Source: an uncultured Actinomycetes bacterium (GTDB taxonomy: Bacteria; Actinomycetota; Actinomycetes; Mycobacteriales; Mycobacteriaceae). Taken from it: 24,102 nt of DNA. Position numbers and translations under genes: made by a program. The DNA is taken from positions 1-24,102 of the forward strand of contig CAIWCQ010000209.1 in assembly GCA_903911165.1 (NCBI GenBank), given 5' to 3'. The notes under the pieces are model-generated. The model saw only the letters and a list, made by a program, of their open reading frames with translations. It searched no databases and was not told where the DNA came from. Positions 3,422-14,400 of the stretch are shown here, in pieces (position 1 is the first letter of the stretch; the number at the start of each line of letters is the position of its first letter).

Positions 3422-3693
3422 GTCACCTGCCTGAGTGTCGAGGTTTTCCGTCGGAACGCGGACCACCGGCGTTGGCTCCGGATAGTACCGAGCCGAATAG
3501 TACTCAGCGGAGCGGTCCGGAGCGGATCGCACCCGGCTGCAACGGCGCGTCGGCCGGCGCTGACGTCACCGTGTTGGCCTGCGGTGCCGCACCGCGACGG
3601 GGGTGGAACGCCCGCGAGGTCGGAAGTGCCGGGGGCGTAAGCTCCCGCGAGGTTGGACGCGCGGCGTCGCCGAGCGTGAACGAGGAGGCAGCC
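3422..3693. promoter_or_regulatory. Divergent intergenic region between the AKR-like gene and lipN
   Basis: This 272-bp region should hold the promoters of both divergent genes. Two direct repeats are visible. ATAGTAC lies at 3482-3488 and 3497-3503 (15 bp apart). CCCGCGAGGTCGGA at 3611-3624 recurs with one mismatch at 3644-3657, 33 bp or three helical turns apart, close upstream of lipN. A TGACGTCA palindrome is at 3561-3568. I see no convincing -35/-10 pair. The repeats are candidate operator sites by position only. Confidence 0.4.
3682..3688 (+). promoter_or_regulatory. Ribosome binding site fixing the lipN start
   Basis: GAGGAGG ends 5 bp before the ATG at 3694. The reading frame is open further upstream to an ATG at 3472, but only 3694 has a Shine-Dalgarno and gives a family-typical N-terminus. 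Confidence 0.85.
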
Positions 3694-4794
3694 ATGTCAG
3701 CACGCGCGGGTGGCGCGCCCAAACGCCGGGCCGTCAAAGAGCGGGCCCTGATCGTGGGTAACCGGTTGGGCGTCAAGCTGATTCCACGCCTTCCGGTCGG
3801 CGTCAAGCGGATGCTCTCCGGAGGCCGGGCCATCACCATCGACGGCAATACCCTGGACCCCTCCCTGCAGATGATGCTGGCCGCCCAACGCTCGCTGGGC
3901 GTGGTCAGCCTGGTGGCCGCCGATGACGTCGCCGCGACCCGCGCCGCTAATCGCGAACTCACCCGCACCCTGGACGAGCCAGATGTGCGCGTCGGCGGCA
4001 TCCGGTCGGTGTCGATCCCGGGCCCGGGCGGTGTGATCCCGGGCCGGCACTATCGGCCCGCCAGCGGTGGCGCACCCGCGCCGCTGGTGGTCTTCTATCA
4101 CGGCGGCGGATTCGTGTTCGGCGACCTCGATACCCATGACGCGGCATGCCGGCTGATCTGTCGTGACGCGGGCGTGCACGTGCTCGCGGTGGATTACCGA
4201 CTGGCGCCCGAACACAAGGCACCGGCCGCCGCCGACGACGCCTACGCGGCCTACCGCTGGGCCCGGGAGCACGCCGGCGAGTTGGGGGCGGATCCGCGCC
4301 GGGTCGCGGTGGCCGGCGACAGTGCCGGCGGTTGTCTGGCCGCAGTGGTCACCCGGCAGGCCCGCGATGCCGGCGACCCACTGCCGTCGCTGCAGTGGCT
4401 GATCTATCCCGTCACCGACTGGCGCGGGCTCGCCCGTTCCCGTTCGCTGCTCGGTGACGGGTTTCTGCTGACCAAGCCCGACATGGACTGGTTTCGGGAA
4501 ATGTACGTCGACGGGTCAGGTTTGGACGTCACCGATCCGAGGGTTTCGCCGTTGCTGGCCGAGGATTTTTCCGGGCTGTCTCCGGCACTGATAGTCACCG
4601 GCGGATTCGATCCGTTGCGCGACGAGGGCGAGGAGTACGCAGTCAAACTCCGGGACGCCGGGGTCGCCGTCGACCATCGGCGAATGAACTCGATGATCCA
4701 CGCCTTTCTGAACCTCAACGTGCTCGGCGGCGGGGTCTCCCGGGCCAACGCGGAAATGATCTCGGCGCTGCGGGCACACCTGGTCCACGACTGA
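3694..4794 (+). CDS. lipN: Hormone-sensitive-lipase family esterase LipN
   Basis: This 366-residue serine esterase of the HSL family hydrolyses short- to medium-chain acyl esters. The oxyanion motif HGGG is at 136-139 (YHGGGFVFGDLDTHD). The nucleophile is Ser210 in GDSAGG, the acid Asp306 in GGFDPLRDEG, and the base His336 in MIHAFL, so the triad is complete. The N-terminal region (VKLIPRLPVGVKRML) is typical of mycobacterial LipN cap domains. Position and length agree with Rv2970c. It has its own strong ribosome site and is divergent from the AKR-like gene, so it probably has its own promoter in the 272-bp gap. Its last codons enter the first copy of a 12-13 bp tandem repeat, and the TGA stop is within that copy. 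No signal peptide is seen. Confidence 0.95.
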   Translation: MSARAGGAPKRRAVKERALIVGNRLGVKLIPRLPVGVKRMLSGGRAITIDGNTLDPSLQMMLAAQRSLGVVSLVAADDVAATRAANRELTRTLDEPDVRVGGIRSVSIPGPGGVIPGRHYRPASGGAPAPLVVFYHGGGFVFGDLDTHDAACRLICRDAGVHVLAVDYRLAPEHKAPAAADDAYAAYRWAREHAGELGADPRRVAVAGDSAGGCLAAVVTRQARDAGDPLPSLQWLIYPVTDWRGLARSRSLLGDGFLLTKPDMDWFREMYVDGSGLDVTDPRVSPLLAEDFSGLSPALIVTGGFDPLRDEGEEYAVKLRDAGVAVDHRRMNSMIHAFLNLNVLGGGVSRANAEMISALRAHLVHD

Positions 4795-4871
4795 GATCCA
4801 CGACTGAGATCCACGACTGGGTCTACGACTGGGTCTACGACTGGGTCTACGACTGGGGGTCTACGACTGGG
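4784..4871. repeat. Seven-copy 12-13 bp tandem repeat at the lipN 3' end
   Basis: The unit is TCYACGACTGGG, with a TGAGA ending in the first two copies. Copies start at 4784, 4797, 4810, 4822, 4834, 4846 and 4860; two extra G bases separate the last two. Copy 1 contains the lipN stop (TGA 4792-4794). The tract could vary in copy number without changing the protein. It is not a CRISPR, because the copies abut without spacers, and no hairpin terminator is obvious. Confidence 0.96.
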
Positions 4872-4895
4872 TCGAATCCGCGGCGGTCCCGCCGG

Positions 4896-7639: not shown

Positions 7640-8377
7640 GTGTACCGAGTATTTGAAGCGCTCGATGAGCTGAGCGCGATTGTCGAAGAGGCCCGCGGTG
7701 TGCCAATGACCGCCGGCTGCGTCGTCCCCCGCGGGGACGTGCTGGAACTGGTCGATGACATCAAGGACGCGATCCCCGGTGAACTCGACGACGCCCAGGA
7801 TGTGCTGGATGCGCGTGACTCGCTGCTCAACGAGGCCAAGGAGCACGCGGACTCCACCGTGACCGGCGCCAACGCCGAAGCAGAGTCCCTACTCAGCCAC
7901 GCGCGCGCGGAGGCGGACCGGGTGCTCTCCGACGCGAAATCCCAGGCCGACCGGATGGTGACTGAATCACGCGCCCACAGTGAGCGCATGGTGGGCGAGG
8001 CCCGCGAAGAGGCTTCCCGGCTGGCGACCACAGCCAAGCGCGACTACGAGGCGGCCACCAGTCGGGCTAAGGCCGAGGCCGACCGTCTCGTCGAGAGCGG
8101 CAACATCTCCTACGAGAACGCCGTCCAGGAAGGCATCAAGGAGCAGCAGCGGATGGTGTCTCAGACCGAGGTGGTTCAGGCCGCTCACGGCGAGTCCACT
8201 CGGCTCATCGATGCCGCCCACGCCGAGGCCGACCGGCTTCGGGGCGAGTGCGATATCTACGTCGACAACAAGCTGGCCCAGTTCGAGGATTACCTCAACG
8301 GCACCCTGCGCTCGGTCAGCCGCGGACGGCATCAACTGCGCACGGCGGCCGGCACCCACGACTACGTGCAGCACTGA
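7640..8377 (+). CDS. sepIVA: SepIVA, DivIVA-domain septation protein
   Basis: The protein has 245 residues from GTG (MYRVFEALDELSAIVEEARG). It closely resembles Rv2927c throughout, including VVPRGDVLELVDDIKDAIPG and the C-terminus GRGRHQLRTAAGTHDY. The body from about 50 to 215 is Ala/Glu/Arg-rich heptad-type coiled coil with repeated AEADR blocks and no membrane segment. In mycobacteria SepIVA localises to the septum and subpolar region and is needed for division; it probably polymerises on the membrane. It has its own ribosome site. Three 22-bp tandem repeats follow the stop by 6 bp. It is distinct from Wag31, which begins with a different conserved N-terminus. Confidence 0.95.
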   Translation: MYRVFEALDELSAIVEEARGVPMTAGCVVPRGDVLELVDDIKDAIPGELDDAQDVLDARDSLLNEAKEHADSTVTGANAEAESLLSHARAEADRVLSDAKSQADRMVTESRAHSERMVGEAREEASRLATTAKRDYEAATSRAKAEADRLVESGNISYENAVQEGIKEQQRMVSQTEVVQAAHGESTRLIDAAHAEADRLRGECDIYVDNKLAQFEDYLNGTLRSVSRGRHQLRTAAGTHDYVQH

Positions 8378-8383
8378 CTTAAG

Positions 8384-8448
8384 TCTTTTAGAGAACCGGG
8401 CGGAATCTTTTAGCGAACCGGGCGGAATCTTTTAGCGAACCGGGCGGC
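8384..8448. repeat. Three tandem copies of a 22-bp unit downstream of sepIVA
   Basis: Copies start at 8384, 8406 and 8428. Each has the core TCTTTTAG then GAACCGGGCGG; copy 1 has one A/C difference and copy 3 diverges at its last base. The tract starts 6 bp after the sepIVA stop and fills most of the gap before the DUF177 promoter. It lacks the inverted symmetry expected of a terminator. Confidence 0.95.
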
Positions 8449-8494: not shown

Positions 8495-9094
8495 ATGTCG
8501 ACGCGTCGAAGATCAGGACCGCATCCTGATCTGAGTTCGCCACTGGTGTTCGACATATCGCGGCTGGGTCGGCGTCCGGGCTCCATGCTGACCGTCAGCC
8601 AGACCGTGCCCAGTCCGCTGCGCATCGGGTTGGATCTCATCGCGATCGAACCCGATGCGGAGATGGATCTCGATCTTCGGTTCGAGTCGGTGTCGGAGGG
8701 CGTGCTGGTCTCCGGCACCGTGCACGCACCGACCCGTGGTGAGTGTTCGCGATGCCTGGGACCGATCACCGATGAGGTCGAGATCGCGCTCACCGAGTTG
8801 TTCGCCTACCCCGACAGCGTCACCGAGTCCACGACGGAATCCGACGAAGTCGGCCGCGTGATCGACGAGACCGTTGATCTCGCACAGCCGATCGTCGACG
8901 CCGTTGGTTTGGCGCTACCTTTCGTCGCGCTGTGCGCCGAGGACTGCCCCGGGCTGTGTTCGCACTGCGGGGTGGCTCTGGCCACCGCCGAAGCCGGCCA
9001 CAGCCACGAGATCATCGACCCGCGCTGGGCCAAACTCGCCGATCTGCGTTCCCTCGACCCGGATGGGACCGATCCGGACGGAACGCCGTCGTGA
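8495..9094 (+). CDS. DUF177 (YceD family) protein, Rv2926c-like
   Basis: The protein has 199 residues. DUF177/YceD proteins are linked to 23S rRNA accumulation and ribosome assembly in bacteria and plastids; the exact role in mycobacteria is unknown. Conserved landmarks are the N-terminal [12 protein letters not shown] and the C84-x2-C87 pair ([10 protein letters not shown]). A second cluster has C147, C151, C155 and C158 ([12 protein letters not shown]); with the first pair this suggests metal binding. The C-terminus contains a perfect peptide duplication, DPDGT twice (9056-9085), before the stop. The stop overlaps the rnc GTG (GTGA), coupling it to RNase III as in M. tuberculosis. The gene is probably the start of a long operon reaching acyP. 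Confidence 0.93.
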
Positions 9095-9807
9095 CCGCCG
9101 CGCGGGCGGACCTGCTGCGCGCCCTGGGCGTCGACCTGCCGGCCGAGTTGTTGACGCTGGCGCTCACGCACCGCAGCTACGCCTACGAGAACGGCGGTCT
9201 GCCCACCAACGAACGTCTCGAACTGCTCGGTGACGCCGTGTTGGGTCTGGTGATCGTCGAGGAACTGTTCCGGCGCCATCCCGACAACTCCGAAGGGGAT
9301 CTGGCCAAGCTGCGCAACAGCATCGTCAACAGCCACGCACTGGCCGGGGTGGCCCGCGGCCTGACCGGGACGGGTCTCGGCGAGTATGTCCTGCTGGGGC
9401 GTGGCGAGATTCAGACCGGCGGACACGGCAAGTCGTCCATCCTGGCCGACACGGTGGAGTCCCTGATCGGTGCGGTGTACCTGCAACACGGACTGCAGGG
9501 CGCCCAGCAGGTGATCCTGAGCCTGTTCGACGATCTCCTCAACACCGCCCCGACCCTCGGTGCGGCCCTGGAGTGGAAGTCCAGCCTGCAGGAACTCACG
9601 GCGGCCCGCGGTCTCGGGGTGCCCCGGTACGAGGTCACCTCCGAGGGCCCCGATCACGAACGGTGGTACTCGGCAGCGGTCTACGTCGAAGGACGGGTGT
9701 GCGGCCGCGGCGATGGACAGTCCAAGAAGATCGCGGAAACCAACGCCGCCGCGCAGGCCTGGACCGCCCTGGATTCGGTACCGGCGGCCGCAGATCCGGA
9801 TGCCTGA
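9091..9807 (+). CDS. rnc: Ribonuclease III
   Basis: The protein has 238 residues from the GTG that overlaps the DUF177 stop; an open frame extends upstream to 8932, but that part is DUF177 coding. RNase III cuts double-stranded RNA, including rRNA precursors. The signature NERLELLGD is at 40-48 with metal ligands E44 and D48; D120 and E123 ([12 protein letters not shown]) complete the site. A C-terminal double-stranded-RNA-binding domain follows ([13 protein letters not shown] ... [14 protein letters not shown]). Length and N-terminus ([20 protein letters not shown]) match mycobacterial RNase III. The last 8 bases overlap mutM. Confidence 0.97.
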
Positions 9808-10681
9808 GCTTCCTGAAGTCGAGGTGGTGCGGCGGGGCCTGCAGGCGCATATCGCCGGCCGGACGGTTACCGCGGTGCAGGTGCTTCACCCGCGCGCGGT
9901 CCGTCGGCACGAACCCGGCGCCGCAGACCTCGTCGCGCGGTTACGCGGCGCTCGGATCACCGGGACGGACCGGCGCGGAAAGTATCTATGGCTGTCGATC
10001 AGCTCAGACGGGAACGACGATGGTGCCGCGCTGGTGGTGCATCTGGGGATGAGCGGCCAGATGCTGCTTGGTGCGCTCGAACGTACCGAGCACCTGCGGA
10101 TCGCGGTGATGCTCGACGACGGCACCGCGTTGAACTTCGTCGATCAACGCACCTTCGGCGGGTGGCAGCTGGCCGAACTGGTTAGCGTGGACGGCAGCCG
10201 GGTGCCCGAACCCGTGGCGCACATCGCCCGCGACCCCCTGGATCCACGTTTTGACCGCGAGGCCGTCGTTAATGTTATGCGGCGCAAGCATTCTGAGATC
10301 AAACGCCTACTCCTCGACCAGACGGTGGTGTCTGGAATCGGCAACATCTACGCCGACGAGGCGCTCTGGCGGGCCGGGGTCAACGGTGCCCGCATCGCCG
10401 ACAAACTGACCCGTCGGCAACTGGGGGAGTTGCTCGACTCCGCGGCCGAGGTGATGCGCGAGGCACTCGGACAGGGCGGCACATCGTTTGATTCGCTGTA
10501 CGTCAACGTCAACGGTCAATCCGGATATTTCGACCGCTCGCTGAACGTCTACGGCCGCGAAGGCCGCCACTGCCGGCGTTGCGGTGCGGTGATCCGCCGG
10601 GCGAAGTTCATGAACCGCTCGTCTTTCTATTGCCCCGTCTGCCAGACCCTCCCGCGCCAGCCGCGGCCGCGCACACGGTAG
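9800..10681 (+). CDS. mutM: Formamidopyrimidine-DNA glycosylase MutM/Fpg
   Basis: This 293-residue base-excision-repair enzyme removes 8-oxoguanine and formamidopyrimidines and nicks the abasic site. The start [13 protein letters not shown] supplies the catalytic N-terminal Pro (after Met removal) and Glu. Lys61 in RRGKYLWL is the conserved Lys (E. coli Lys57). LGMSGQML and the helix-two-turn-helix region ([17 protein letters not shown]) follow. The C-terminal zinc finger has C258, C261, C278 and C281 (HCRRCG ... FYCPVCQ). The ATG at 9800 overlaps rnc by 8 bp. The gene corresponds to Rv2924c. All catalytic features are intact. Confidence 0.97.
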
Positions 10682-10690
10682 AACAAACCC

Positions 10691-11104
10691 ATGACGGAGC
10701 TTTGGGTGGAACGCACGGGGATCCGCCGCTACACCGGCCGCAGCAGCCGGGGCGCGGAGGTCCTGATCGGTTCGGAGAGCGACGAGGCGGTGTTCACCCC
10801 CGGCGAACTGCTGAAAATCGCGCTGGCCGGCTGCAGCGGACTGAGCAGCGATCAGCCGCTGCGCCGCCGCCTCGGTGACGACTACCGCGCGGTGATCCGG
10901 GTTGCCGGGCCGGCCGACCGCGACGAGGAGCGCTACCCGCGGCTGACTGAGACCCTGGAGATCGATCTGACGGGATTGTCCGACGGGGACAAAGAGCGCC
11001 TGCTGCTGGTGATCAACCGCGCCATCGACGGAGTGTGCACGGTCGGGCGCACGCTCAAGGCGGGCGCGGAGATCTCCTTCGAGGTTGCCGACACTGGGCT
11101 ATGA
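10691..11104 (+). CDS. OsmC/Ohr family peroxiredoxin-like protein (Rv2923c-like)
   Basis: The protein has 137 residues from the ATG at 10691, 9 bp after mutM. OsmC/Ohr proteins reduce organic hydroperoxides with a Cys pair. C48 (LKIALAGCSGLSSD) and C116 (DGVCTVGRTLKAG) are in the expected places. Arg and Glu partners also appear available (R12/R13 and E39). The ribosome site is weak, so translation may depend on coupling to mutM. Its last codons (D-T-G-L-stop) are the source of the 17-bp tandem repeat that follows: the stop TGA (11102-11104) overlaps an ATG at 11101. The substrate is not known. Confidence 0.88.
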   Translation: MTELWVERTGIRRYTGRSSRGAEVLIGSESDEAVFTPGELLKIALAGCSGLSSDQPLRRRLGDDYRAVIRVAGPADRDEERYPRLTETLEIDLTGLSDGDKERLLLVINRAIDGVCTVGRTLKAGAEISFEVADTGL

Positions 11105-11174
11105 CGGACACTGGGCCATGATCGATACTGGGCCATGATCGATACTGGGCCATGATCGATACTGGGCCATGACT
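11093..11174 (+). repeat. 17-bp tandem repeat forming an ATGA mini-ORF relay between the OsmC-like gene and acyP
   Basis: Four full copies of ACTGGGCCATGATCGAT-type sequence begin at 11093, 11110, 11127 and 11144; a partial fifth begins at 11161. Copy 1 holds the OsmC-gene stop and the partial copy holds the acyP ATG. Each unit contains ATGA. The ATGs at 11101, 11118, 11135 and 11152 open six-codon frames (MTDTGP, then MIDTGP three times). Each frame ends in a TGA overlapping the next ATG; the last stop overlaps the acyP start at 11169. The 17-nt period shifts frame by -1 at each step. Confidence 0.97.
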
Positions 11175-11465
11175 GCTCTCGAGCCCGTCCGCCTGACCGC
11201 CTGGGTGCACGGCCACGTCCAAGGCGTGGGTTTCCGTTGGTGGACCCGCTCCCGGGCCCTTGAGCTGGGCCTGGATGGCTATGCGAGCAACCAGCCCGAC
11301 GGCCGGGTGCTGGTGGTCGCCCAGGGGCAGCGGGTGGCCCGCGAAGCACTGCTGGCGCTCCTACGGGGCGGTGGTACGCCCGGTTCGGTGCAGACCGTCA
11401 TCGCCGAGTTCACCTCGCCGGGACAGGACGCGACACCGGTGGAGTCGGGCTTCCGCGAGCGCTGA
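11169..11465 (+). CDS. acyP: Acylphosphatase
   Basis: This 98-residue enzyme hydrolyses carboxyl-phosphate bonds such as those in acetyl phosphate or 1,3-bisphosphoglycerate. The family motif [17 protein letters not shown] supplies catalytic Arg23, and Asn41 is in [11 protein letters not shown]. The start and N-terminus (VRLTAWVHG) match Rv2922A. The start codon lies in the last, partial copy of the 17-bp repeat and has no good Shine-Dalgarno, so translation may depend on ribosomes arriving through the mini-ORF chain or from the OsmC-like gene. smc follows after 26 bp. Confidence 0.95.
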
Positions 11466-11477
11466 GCTCCTCGCCGG

Positions 11478-11483
11478 TAGGCT
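11478..11483 (+). promoter_or_regulatory. Candidate -10 element before smc
   Basis: TAGGCT in the context CGCCGGTAGGCT ends 8 bp before the GTG at 11492, giving a leaderless or nearly leaderless smc mRNA. The context is almost identical to those at 4890-4901 and 8477-8488. Confidence 0.5.
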
Positions 11484-11491
11484 CGCACGAC

Positions 11492-14400
11492 GTGTACCTC
11501 AAGAGTCTGACGCTGAAGGGTTTCAAGTCCTTCGCGTCGCCGACGACTCTGCGTTTCGAACCCGGTATCACCTGCGTGGTCGGGCCGAATGGCTCCGGTA
11601 AGTCCAACGTCGTCGACGCCCTGGCCTGGGTGATGGGCGAGCAGGGCGCCAAGACCCTGCGCGGCGGAAAGATGGAAGACGTCATTTTCGCCGGCACCTC
11701 CTCGCGTGCCCCGCTGGGCCGGGCCGAGGTCACCCTGACCATCGACAACTCCGACGGCCTGCTGCCGATCGACTATTCCGAGGTGTCGATCACCCGAAGG
11801 ATGTTCCGCGACGGCGCCGGCGAGTACGAGATCAACGGCAACAGCTGCCGGCTGATGGACGTCCAGGAACTCCTCAGTGACTCCGGTATCGGCCGGGAAA
11901 TGCACGTCATCGTCGGGCAGGGTCGACTGGCGCAGATCCTCGAGTCGCGTCCGGAGGACCGCCGCGCCTTCATCGAGGAGGCGGCCGGGGTGCTCAAGCA
12001 CCGCAAGCGCAAGGAGAAGGCGCTGCGCAAATTGGACGCCACCGCGGCCAATCTGGCCCGGCTCAGCGACCTGACCACCGAACTGCGCCGTCAACTCAAG
12101 CCGCTGGGCCGGCAGGCCGAGATGGCAAGGCGCGCAGCCACAATCCAGGCCGACCTGCGCGACGCCCGGCTTCGGCTGGCCGCCGATGACCTTCTCATCC
12201 GCCGAGGCGAGTTCGCCGGTGCCGACGACATCGAGACCACGCTGCGACGCGAGCACGACGAAGCCACCGCACGGCTGGCGACGGCATCGGAACAACTCGC
12301 CGCCGGTGAAGCCGCCGTCGCCTCGCTGTCGTCGCGATCCGAGGCCGCACAGCAGACCTGGTTTGGGCTCTCGGCACTGGCCGAGCGGGTCGGCGCCACG
12401 GTGCGTATCGCCTCCGAACGAGAGCAGTACCTGGAGGCGGAGCCAGCTGTGAGCACCGGTCCGGATCCCGATGCGCTCGACGCCGAGGCCGATGAGGTAG
12501 CTGAGCAGGAGCGTGGACTGCTCGCCGAACTTGGCGGTGCCCGATCGGCACTGGAGGCCGCGCGGGTCGAACTCACCGCGAAGGAGAGCGCGGCCACCGA
12601 GGCCGAACGCGCGCATCTGGCCGCTGTGCGGGCCGAGGCAGACCGTCGGGAAGGTCTGGCCCGGCTGACCGGTCAGGTGGAGACCGGCCGTGCCCGGGTC
12701 GAGTCGATCGACGACACCGTGGCACGGCTGACCGCCGCGATCGATGAGGCCGCGGCCCGCACCGAGGCGGCACGGGCCGAGTTTGAGACCATCCAGAGCC
12801 GAATCGGCGAACTCGACCAGGGTGAGGTGGGCCTCGACGAGCACCACGACCGATCGGTGGCCTCGATGCGCGCCGCCGACGAACGGGTGGCGGAACTGCA
12901 GGCCGCCGAACGTTCCGCCGAACGGCAGGTGGCCTCGTTACAGGCCCGGATCGATGCGCTCGCAGTGGGACTCGAACGCCGGGACGGCGCCGCGTGGCTC
13001 CTGGAAAACCGCAGTAGCGCAGGGCTTTTCGGAACCATCGCCACGCTGGTGAAGGTCCGCGCCGGCTTCGAAGCGGCACTGGCCGCGGTACTCGGCGCGG
13101 CGGCCGACGCGGTGGCGGCCGACGACTTTGGTGCAGCTCGGTCGGCGGTGCGCGCCCTCAAGGACGTTGACGGCGGACGCGCTGCCATTGTGTTGGCGGA
13201 CTGGCCGATGCCAGCGGGCCAGGACCTCGGTTCGCTTCCCGATGGTGCCCGCTGGGCCATTGATCTCATCGAGGCGCCGCCGCGACTGCAGGGCGCCATG
13301 ACGGCCATGCTGGCCGGGGTGGCCGTCGTCGACGACATCGGCGCCGCACTGGACCTGGTCTCGGAGCGTCCTGGGCTGCGCGCGGTGACCCGCGACGGCG
13401 ACCTGGTGGGTGCGGGCCGGGTGGACGGCGGCTCCGGCCGCAAGCCCAGCACTCTGGAAATCACCGGCGAAATCGAGAAGGCCCGGACCGAACTCCTCGC
13501 CGCCGAGACCCAGGTCGCCCAGCTTGCCGCGGCGCTGGCGGGCGCCGTTGCCGAGCAAGCCGACCGCAAGGACGCCGCCGAGCAGGCGCTCGCAGCGCTC
13601 AACGAGTCCGACGCCGCAATGTCGGCGATCTACGAGCAACTTGGCCGACTCGGCCAGGAGGTCCGACTGGCCGAGGAGGAGTGGCGCCGGCTGCAGACGC
13701 AGCGCGACGAACTCGAGTCCGGCCGGGTGCAGACAGTCACCGAACTCACCGAACTCGAGGCGCGACTGCGTGCCGCCCAGGAGAGCCAGACCGTCGTCGA
13801 GACGTCGCCGGGGGAACGAAGTCAGATGCAAGCCTTGGCGGAACAGGCTCGCGCATTTGAGGTTGAGGCTCGGCTGGCGGTGCGCACCGCCGAGGAACGC
13901 GCGAATGCCGTTCGCGGACGGGCGGATTCGCTTCGGCGATCGGCGTCGGCGGAGCGCGATACTCGTCTGCGCGCGCAACAGGCCCGCGCCGCGCGTCAGC
14001 ATGCCGCGGAGGTTGCCGCCACGGTTGCCGAGACCGGCCGCCGCGTTGCCGCGCACCTCGTGGTCGTCGTGGGAGCGGCCTCGCGGGTGCGGGACCAGCT
14101 CGCCGCGGAGCGCCTGGAGCGTGCCGCCGCGATGACCGCAGCGCGCGCGGAGGTCGCCGAGCTCAACACCCGCATCAGTGCGTTGACCGAATCCCTGCAC
14201 CGCGACGAGGTCGCCAAGGCCCAGGCCGAGCTGCGCATCGAACAGCTCGAGCAAATGGTGCTCGAGCAGTTCGGCATGGCCGGTGATGATCTCCTCGCCG
14301 AGTACGGCCCGGAGGTGTTGTTGCCACCGACGGAGTTGGAGTTGGCCGAGTACGCCCAGGCCCGCGAGCGCGGCGAAACGGTGACCGCGCCGGTGCCGAT

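Follow-up and report, generated by a model that had tools for sequence, protein, structure and literature searches.

A chain of tandemly duplicated stop-start junctions that probably relays ribosomes from an OsmC-like gene to acyP in a mycobacterial genome

Architecture of the OsmC-acyP junction

The window analysed here, a stretch of 24,102 nt from an uncultured member of the Mycobacteriaceae, carries rnc, mutM/fpg, an OsmC-family gene, acyP, and an smc-like gene in this order, the last being presumably smc. A sequence-only reading of this DNA had identified the genes on the two sides of the junction studied here as OsmC-like and acyP, and Pfam matches bear out both identities (Table 1). It had also described a 17-bp tandem duplication containing four six-codon mini-ORFs linked by ATGA overlaps, which direct reading and Tandem Repeats Finder both reproduce, with the refinement that the array holds five unit copies, the first of which contains the OsmC-like stop, in addition to the four closed mini-ORFs. 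With a period of 17, 92% matches, and a score of 133, the array stands at the top of the 23 rows returned for the window. The TGA of the OsmC-family gene (11102-11104) shares bases with the ATG at 11101, and all five junctions in the chain leading from the OsmC-like gene through the mini-ORFs to acyP are ATGA, the stop of each frame overlapping the start of the next. With the array present, the gap between the OsmC-like stop and the acyP start is 64 nt.

Table 1. Features of the junction in the window and of the other relays found in the same genome
Locus	Feature	Position	Strand	Basis
Window	OsmC-family gene	10691..11104	+	Pfam PF02566, E=4.3e-7
Window	Tandem array, unit 17 bp, 4.9 copies, ATGA in every unit	11089..11172	+	Tandem Repeats Finder
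Window	Mini-ORF 1, MTDTGP-stop	11101..11121	+	Direct reading
Window	Mini-ORF 2, MIDTGP-stop	11118..11138	+	Direct reading
Window	Mini-ORF 3, MIDTGP-stop	11135..11155	+	Direct reading
Window	Mini-ORF 4, MIDTGP-stop, TGA overlapping the acyP ATG	11152..11172	+	Direct reading
Window	acyP, acylphosphatase, 98 codons	11169..11465	+	Pfam PF00708, E=7.5e-21
C309 (L119)	ABC ATPase to SUFU-domain gene; 4 mini-ORFs, 17 bp			Pfam
C505	Endonuclease III to thioredoxin-like gene; 5 mini-ORFs, 14 bp			Pfam
C439	FHA to MerR; 2 mini-ORFs, 20 bp			Pfam
C144	Acyl-CoA dehydrogenase to aminotransferase; 4 mini-ORFs, 17 bp; upstream TAG 3 nt before the first ATG, no overlap			Pfam
C178	3 mini-ORFs in a leader behind a divergent gene			No Pfam match
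C86	MurB; 1 mini-ORF; upstream gene not seen			Pfam
C436	2 mini-ORFs; upstream ORF reads on across the array as far as its last start			
C326	Mixed spacing of 19/19/11/18 bp, chain still closing			

The ending of the mini-ORFs, ..DTGP, echoes the C-terminus of the OsmC-like protein, ..ADTGL, and since the mini-ORFs repeat this C-terminus, the unit copies the surroundings of the first gene's stop together with the start of the second. The copies carry point differences between them. No Shine-Dalgarno sequence before acyP is evident in the unit by eye, and folding gave no sign of unusual RNA structure (z=-1.35, with 19 of 200 shuffles equally stable). Within acyP itself, a hairpin that resembles a terminator and has a T-rich tail lies at 11213-11229, one such element being found against a shuffle mean of 0.4, which is about what chance would give.

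Across the 3.14-Mb, 524-contig assembly, the two-unit pattern matches at the array alone (4 overlapping matches), while the reversed-pattern control matches nowhere. A dispersed repeat family was rejected, all five exact matches to the unit core lying inside the array; allowing up to two mismatches gave 97 matches, compared with 47 in the reversed control, and no further 17-bp array built from the unit. The array is not due to chance, given its single site in the genome, the empty control, and the three-copy version in a related organism described below. Two other tandem repeats were observed in the window, a 22-bp unit in 2.9 copies at 8384-8447, between the genes at 7640-8377 and 8546-9094, and a 12-bp unit in 7.3 copies at 4782-4873, running from the 3' end of the gene at 3676-4794 into intergenic space.

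Variation among relatives and similar chains in the same genome

The named relatives of this acyP belong mostly to Mycobacterium and its kin. Among the best 80 of 525 candidate acyP loci, taken from named genomes, one (L005) carries the array, in three copies with two MTDTGQ mini-ORFs, next to an acyP that is 81% identical to that of the window. The two-unit pattern, a search that a diverged unit would escape, is present in 2 of 396 sampled same-genus genomes, the window genome and G134, the latter of which shares its sequence with L005 and is probably the same assembly. The contig of L005 looks mycobacterial and lies in a public metagenome-assembled genome labelled Bifidobacterium breve, apparently through contamination or mislabelling. 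The sequence-only reading had proposed comparing the copy number across strains and related species, and it does differ, being five (four mini-ORFs) in the window and three (two mini-ORFs) in L005/G134, which are different organisms; the array is tandem, its copy number varies between genomes, and it is in this sense a variable number tandem repeat.

The overlap between the OsmC-like gene and acyP is far more widespread than the array. It was found in 64 of the 74 classifiable loci among the best 80 of 525, and measured exactly 4 nt in 21, as judged from the start nearest the stop, a choice that favours overlaps; the six loci left unclassified comprise five lacking the OsmC motif and one lacking a start. 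Since the overlap is common in relatives, the coupling of the two genes looks older than the array.

Chains of the same kind occur elsewhere in the window's genome. A 17-bp RTGA search returned five arrays, and a wider search with unit lengths of 14, 16, 17, 19, and 20, after which the loci were read and non-repeats such as C1, C77, C192, and C308 were dropped by eye, brought the number of predicted gene starts with a closed relay to at least nine, the window included, and hence at least eight others (Table 1); because few unit lengths were searched, this count is a lower bound. The units of these other relays are spaced by 11-20 bp. In five of the nine relays, namely those of the window, C309, C505, C439, and C326, the first copy ends the upstream gene. 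At C436, presumably a rapZ-like locus, the upstream ORF extends as far as the final start codon, which makes a relay unnecessary there. The Pfam scan of the flanking genes covered all relays except C436 and C326, and at C144 and C505 a simple gene caller chose a later start of the same frame. Six further candidates (C379, C288, C48, C495, C517, and C396) were judged not to be relays. Among these, C379 is a 17-bp chain whose last copy has no gene on the same strand, C48 (16 bp) is the start of a long frame that was judged non-coding, and C517 (19 bp, 1 mod 3) ends in a copy that is in frame with the following gene, yet its chain overshoots; neither C48 nor C517 was counted.

Short tandem arrays are in general abundant in this genome, with 177 per Mb in 428 kb (contigs L130-L189 and the window), about twice the 87.5 per Mb of G009, a complete same-genus genome of which 400 kb was sampled. 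Their lengths show no overall frame bias, since among those not divisible by 3, nine are 1 mod 3 and eleven 2 mod 3 in the window's genome, and four and three, respectively, in G009.

Frame bias and the proposed ribosome relay

When L bases around an RTGA overlap are duplicated, the next TGA falls L+1 bases past the first RTG. With L = 2 (mod 3), as for 17, a mini-ORF begun at one copy ends on the start of the next, and every unit becomes a closed mini-ORF in the frame that the upstream gene used for the unit. With L = 1 (mod 3), the ORF runs past the next start, and the second is the only one on which it can close. The perfect chain in the window is the arithmetic outcome of one type of duplication.

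Whether such lengths are favoured was assessed in 200 genomes of the same order, with the window's own genome left out of the junction counts. Arrays of four RTGA units with a 17-bp period occur in 43 of the 200 genomes, and with a 16-bp period in 38, so that there is no raw excess and the information lies solely in the arrays that join a junction. Those in which a coding frame ends at the first TGA and another begins at the last RTG make up 12 of 49 at 17 bp (in 12 genomes) compared with 1 of 38 at 16 bp (Fisher P=0.005), with P ranging over the identity and length cut-offs from 0.001 to 0.075 with a coding filter and from 0.002 to 0.42 without it, for a test that was devised after the arrays had been seen. 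Restricting the comparison to stop-linked arrays gave P values of 0.004-0.13 when the filter was applied and 0.09-0.71 otherwise. Neither end is significant on its own in the order sample, the start-linked arrays numbering 20/49 and 9/38 (P=0.11) and the stop-linked arrays 18/49 and 9/38 (P=0.25). Besides the own genome, these counts exclude arrays whose units are less than 0.8 identical or have a shorter true period, duplicates, and one contig-edge array per set, as well as one 17-bp site (G543 C3:525633) and three 16-bp sites (G430 C2:1187157, G527 C4:830371, and G531 C1:115257), none of which is a clean repeat by eye; the arrays of G002, G027, and G032 fall outside the order sample and were uncounted.

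In viral contigs, searched for five RTGA units flanked by frames of at least 60 codons with no coding filter, 5 of 97 arrays of 14, 17, or 20 bp were junction-joining compared with 0 of 105 of 13, 16, or 19 bp, among the matches listed (P=0.024); adding 23 and 22 bp weakened the bias to 5/119 and 1/138 (P=0.10), again among the matches listed. Stratified over the order and viral sets, the latter restricted to the matches listed, the test gave P=0.002 with an odds ratio of about 9. Within the window's genome, the length comparison gave 8/11 and 1/4 (P=0.24, not significant), or 2/4 for the latter if C517 is counted. A downstream gene is missing from some 17-bp chains, including C379 in the window's genome and L125 and L244 elsewhere. 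L244 (G437 C12, 63717 onward) consists of 34 exact 17-bp GTGA units right behind a 427-codon open frame, and its last copy starts no long frame.

A bias of junction-joining arrays towards 2 mod 3 would imply purifying selection on the relay and, through it, real reinitiation at the duplicated starts, and we regard the frame counts as moderate evidence of both. The sequence-only reading had proposed that ribosomes are handed over repeatedly through the array, and this gains indirect support from the prevalence of the overlap in relatives and from the preference of junction-joining arrays for a closed-relay length. Published work on reinitiation sets the distances involved. At two E. coli gene pairs, 15 nt from the end of the upstream gene were enough for reinitiation (PMC10666635, accessible text), and the sense codons of each mini-ORF amount to 18 nt, although the published 15 nt were fused to a longer gene, so that a six-codon ORF standing alone would not necessarily suffice. 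Gaps of 38 nt lowered reinitiation by 80-90% or abolished it at three E. coli pairs, according to the same text, while coupling over gaps of 40 nt or more has also been published, mostly weaker (PMC10666635, PMC12548453, accessible portions), so the relay is perhaps unnecessary for some coupling. In mycobacteria, small ORFs coupled by RTGA are over-represented, as the available part of Shell et al. 2015 (PMC4633059) states.

We consider it likely that the array is a tandem duplication of a coupled stop-start junction, made by slippage, and that frame-preserving duplications of this kind are tolerated since the relay survives. A local duplication would have copied the final codons of the OsmC-like gene, its stop, and the start codon of acyP, turning every added unit into a full step of termination and reinitiation. 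A ribosome ending the OsmC-like gene would resume translation at 11101, stop after six codons, and start again, passing through five reinitiations altogether, the final one at acyP; the four mini-ORFs would thus probably hand ribosomes from one gene to the other, bridging the 64-nt gap and keeping acyP coupled, with peptides that are probably irrelevant. The output of acyP would be level or attenuated according to the efficiency of each hand-over. At the scale of the lineage, many short tandem duplications would arise and, over coupled junctions, mainly those of closed-relay length would persist, so that junction relays look like a recurrent product of DNA slippage, kept mainly if the reading frame still works. 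The presence of the same architecture at unrelated junctions of the genome counts in favour of this explanation, and we infer ribosome passage through an array that is tolerated rather than selected for dosage. A bolder version, in which the unit count is a heritable, reversible translational attenuator that fixes how strongly neighbouring genes are expressed relative to each other and the relays form a general frame-gated class of bacterial repeats, with up to nine gene starts here, is speculative and rather unlikely.

The other explanations differ from the tolerated relay in what they ask of the repeat. If ribosomes were lost at each hand-over, the number of units would set the ratio of acyP to OsmC and slippage would make the array a contingency locus, a reading that the four and two mini-ORFs of the two carrier genomes would suit; the sequence-only reading had raised such tuning of acyP as a possibility. 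Losses would compound, and with an assumed 80% per step, simple arithmetic puts the level after five hand-overs at 0.41 of that at a single junction; at the rnc-fpg1 repeat of M. tuberculosis, longer versions go with modestly higher fpg1 mRNA (PMC2734929, accessible text). There is, however, no known reason for acyP to vary, and the arrays at unrelated junctions fit neutral slippage better, which leaves such dosage tuning unlikely. Neutral slippage in its pure form, where any intergenic duplication is tolerated and the chain is mere arithmetic (17 = 2 mod 3) devoid of translational meaning, draws on the fact that a 2 mod 3 duplication over ATGA yields a chain automatically, on the similar raw numbers of genomes with 16- and 17-bp arrays, on the non-significant length comparison in the own genome, and on the several cut-offs at which the frame test loses significance. 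It does not predict the scarcity of junction-joining 16-bp arrays (1/38 compared with 12/49), the length at which a four-copy relay overshoots, and we hold it to be unlikely as well.

A transcriptional role, with a repeated -10-like GATACT or CATGAT giving a leaderless acyP transcript, would fit the GATACT at 11158-11163, 5 nt before the acyP ATG, and the frequency of leaderless transcripts in mycobacteria (PMC4633059, available part), but the related organism carries GACACT in its place, and a scan of 10600-11600 for sigma-70-like promoters, which covers mycobacterial promoters incompletely, found none; we regard this role as very improbable. That the array was created by a fragmented assembly of 524 contigs is hardly credible, since the units differ by point changes, a contig of another assembly has its own three-copy version, and 84 bp is below the common short-read length.

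If the frame bias holds, it would provide an evolutionary readout of termination-reinitiation, in which the genome reports the duplicated starts that ribosomes use. The arrays amount to natural serial-reinitiation constructs of one to five near-identical steps, which would make the efficiency of reinitiation per step directly measurable. They would also give short tandem repeats a further, translational means of altering expression, involving neither promoters nor shifts of a protein's frame.

Relation to MIRUs, coupled small ORFs, and other repeats

Supply et al. reportedly described MIRUs at start codons in 1997. According to the accessible part of a review (PMC12548453), MIRUs are repeats, apparently mobile, that become inserted at start codons and whose internal ORF is coupled to the downstream gene through a 4-nt overlap, owing to which their insertion is probably of little effect on expression; they measure 40-100 bp and lie at 41 scattered places in M. 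tuberculosis H37Rv (PMC2734929, accessible text). The array resembles them in that the ORFs of its units couple to the gene by an RTGA overlap. It differs in its 17-bp unit, in having no dispersed homologous copies in a sequence-pattern search (not a MIRU profile), and in being built from the local junction, other junctions having unrelated units of other lengths. The parallel with MIRUs drawn in the sequence-only reading accordingly stands for the mechanism and fails for family membership; the array works like a mycobacterial MIRU without being one.

The RTGA-coupled small ORFs of mycobacteria (PMC4633059) share with the array a TGA that overlaps the next RTG, but in the available part of that source they stand singly before a gene, whereas here four near-identical copies lie between two genes. 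The mechanism proposed here corresponds to the termination-reinitiation known from overlapping gene pairs (PMC6728339, PMC10666635), and the accessible text of these papers describes no serial relay. A variable tandem repeat next to the same rnc-fpg genes, VNTR3239/ETR-F of M. tuberculosis, lies at another junction (rnc-fpg1) with compound units of 55 and 79 bp, and its length correlates with fpg1 mRNA; the available text (PMC2734929) reports the transcript level and describes no relay. In the window, the rnc-fpg junction (near 9800) has an 8-nt overlap and no repeat, unlike that of M. tuberculosis.

A search by title and the start of the abstract, covering the best matches in a mostly open-access literature, found no paper on tandemly repeated mini-ORF relays. 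The earlier statement that no case with so short a unit had been described is to that extent uncontradicted, although the architecture itself recurs in genomes and is not singular to this locus. Coupling through overlapping stops and starts is already known, and what appears to be new is the tandem 17-bp chain made from the local junction.
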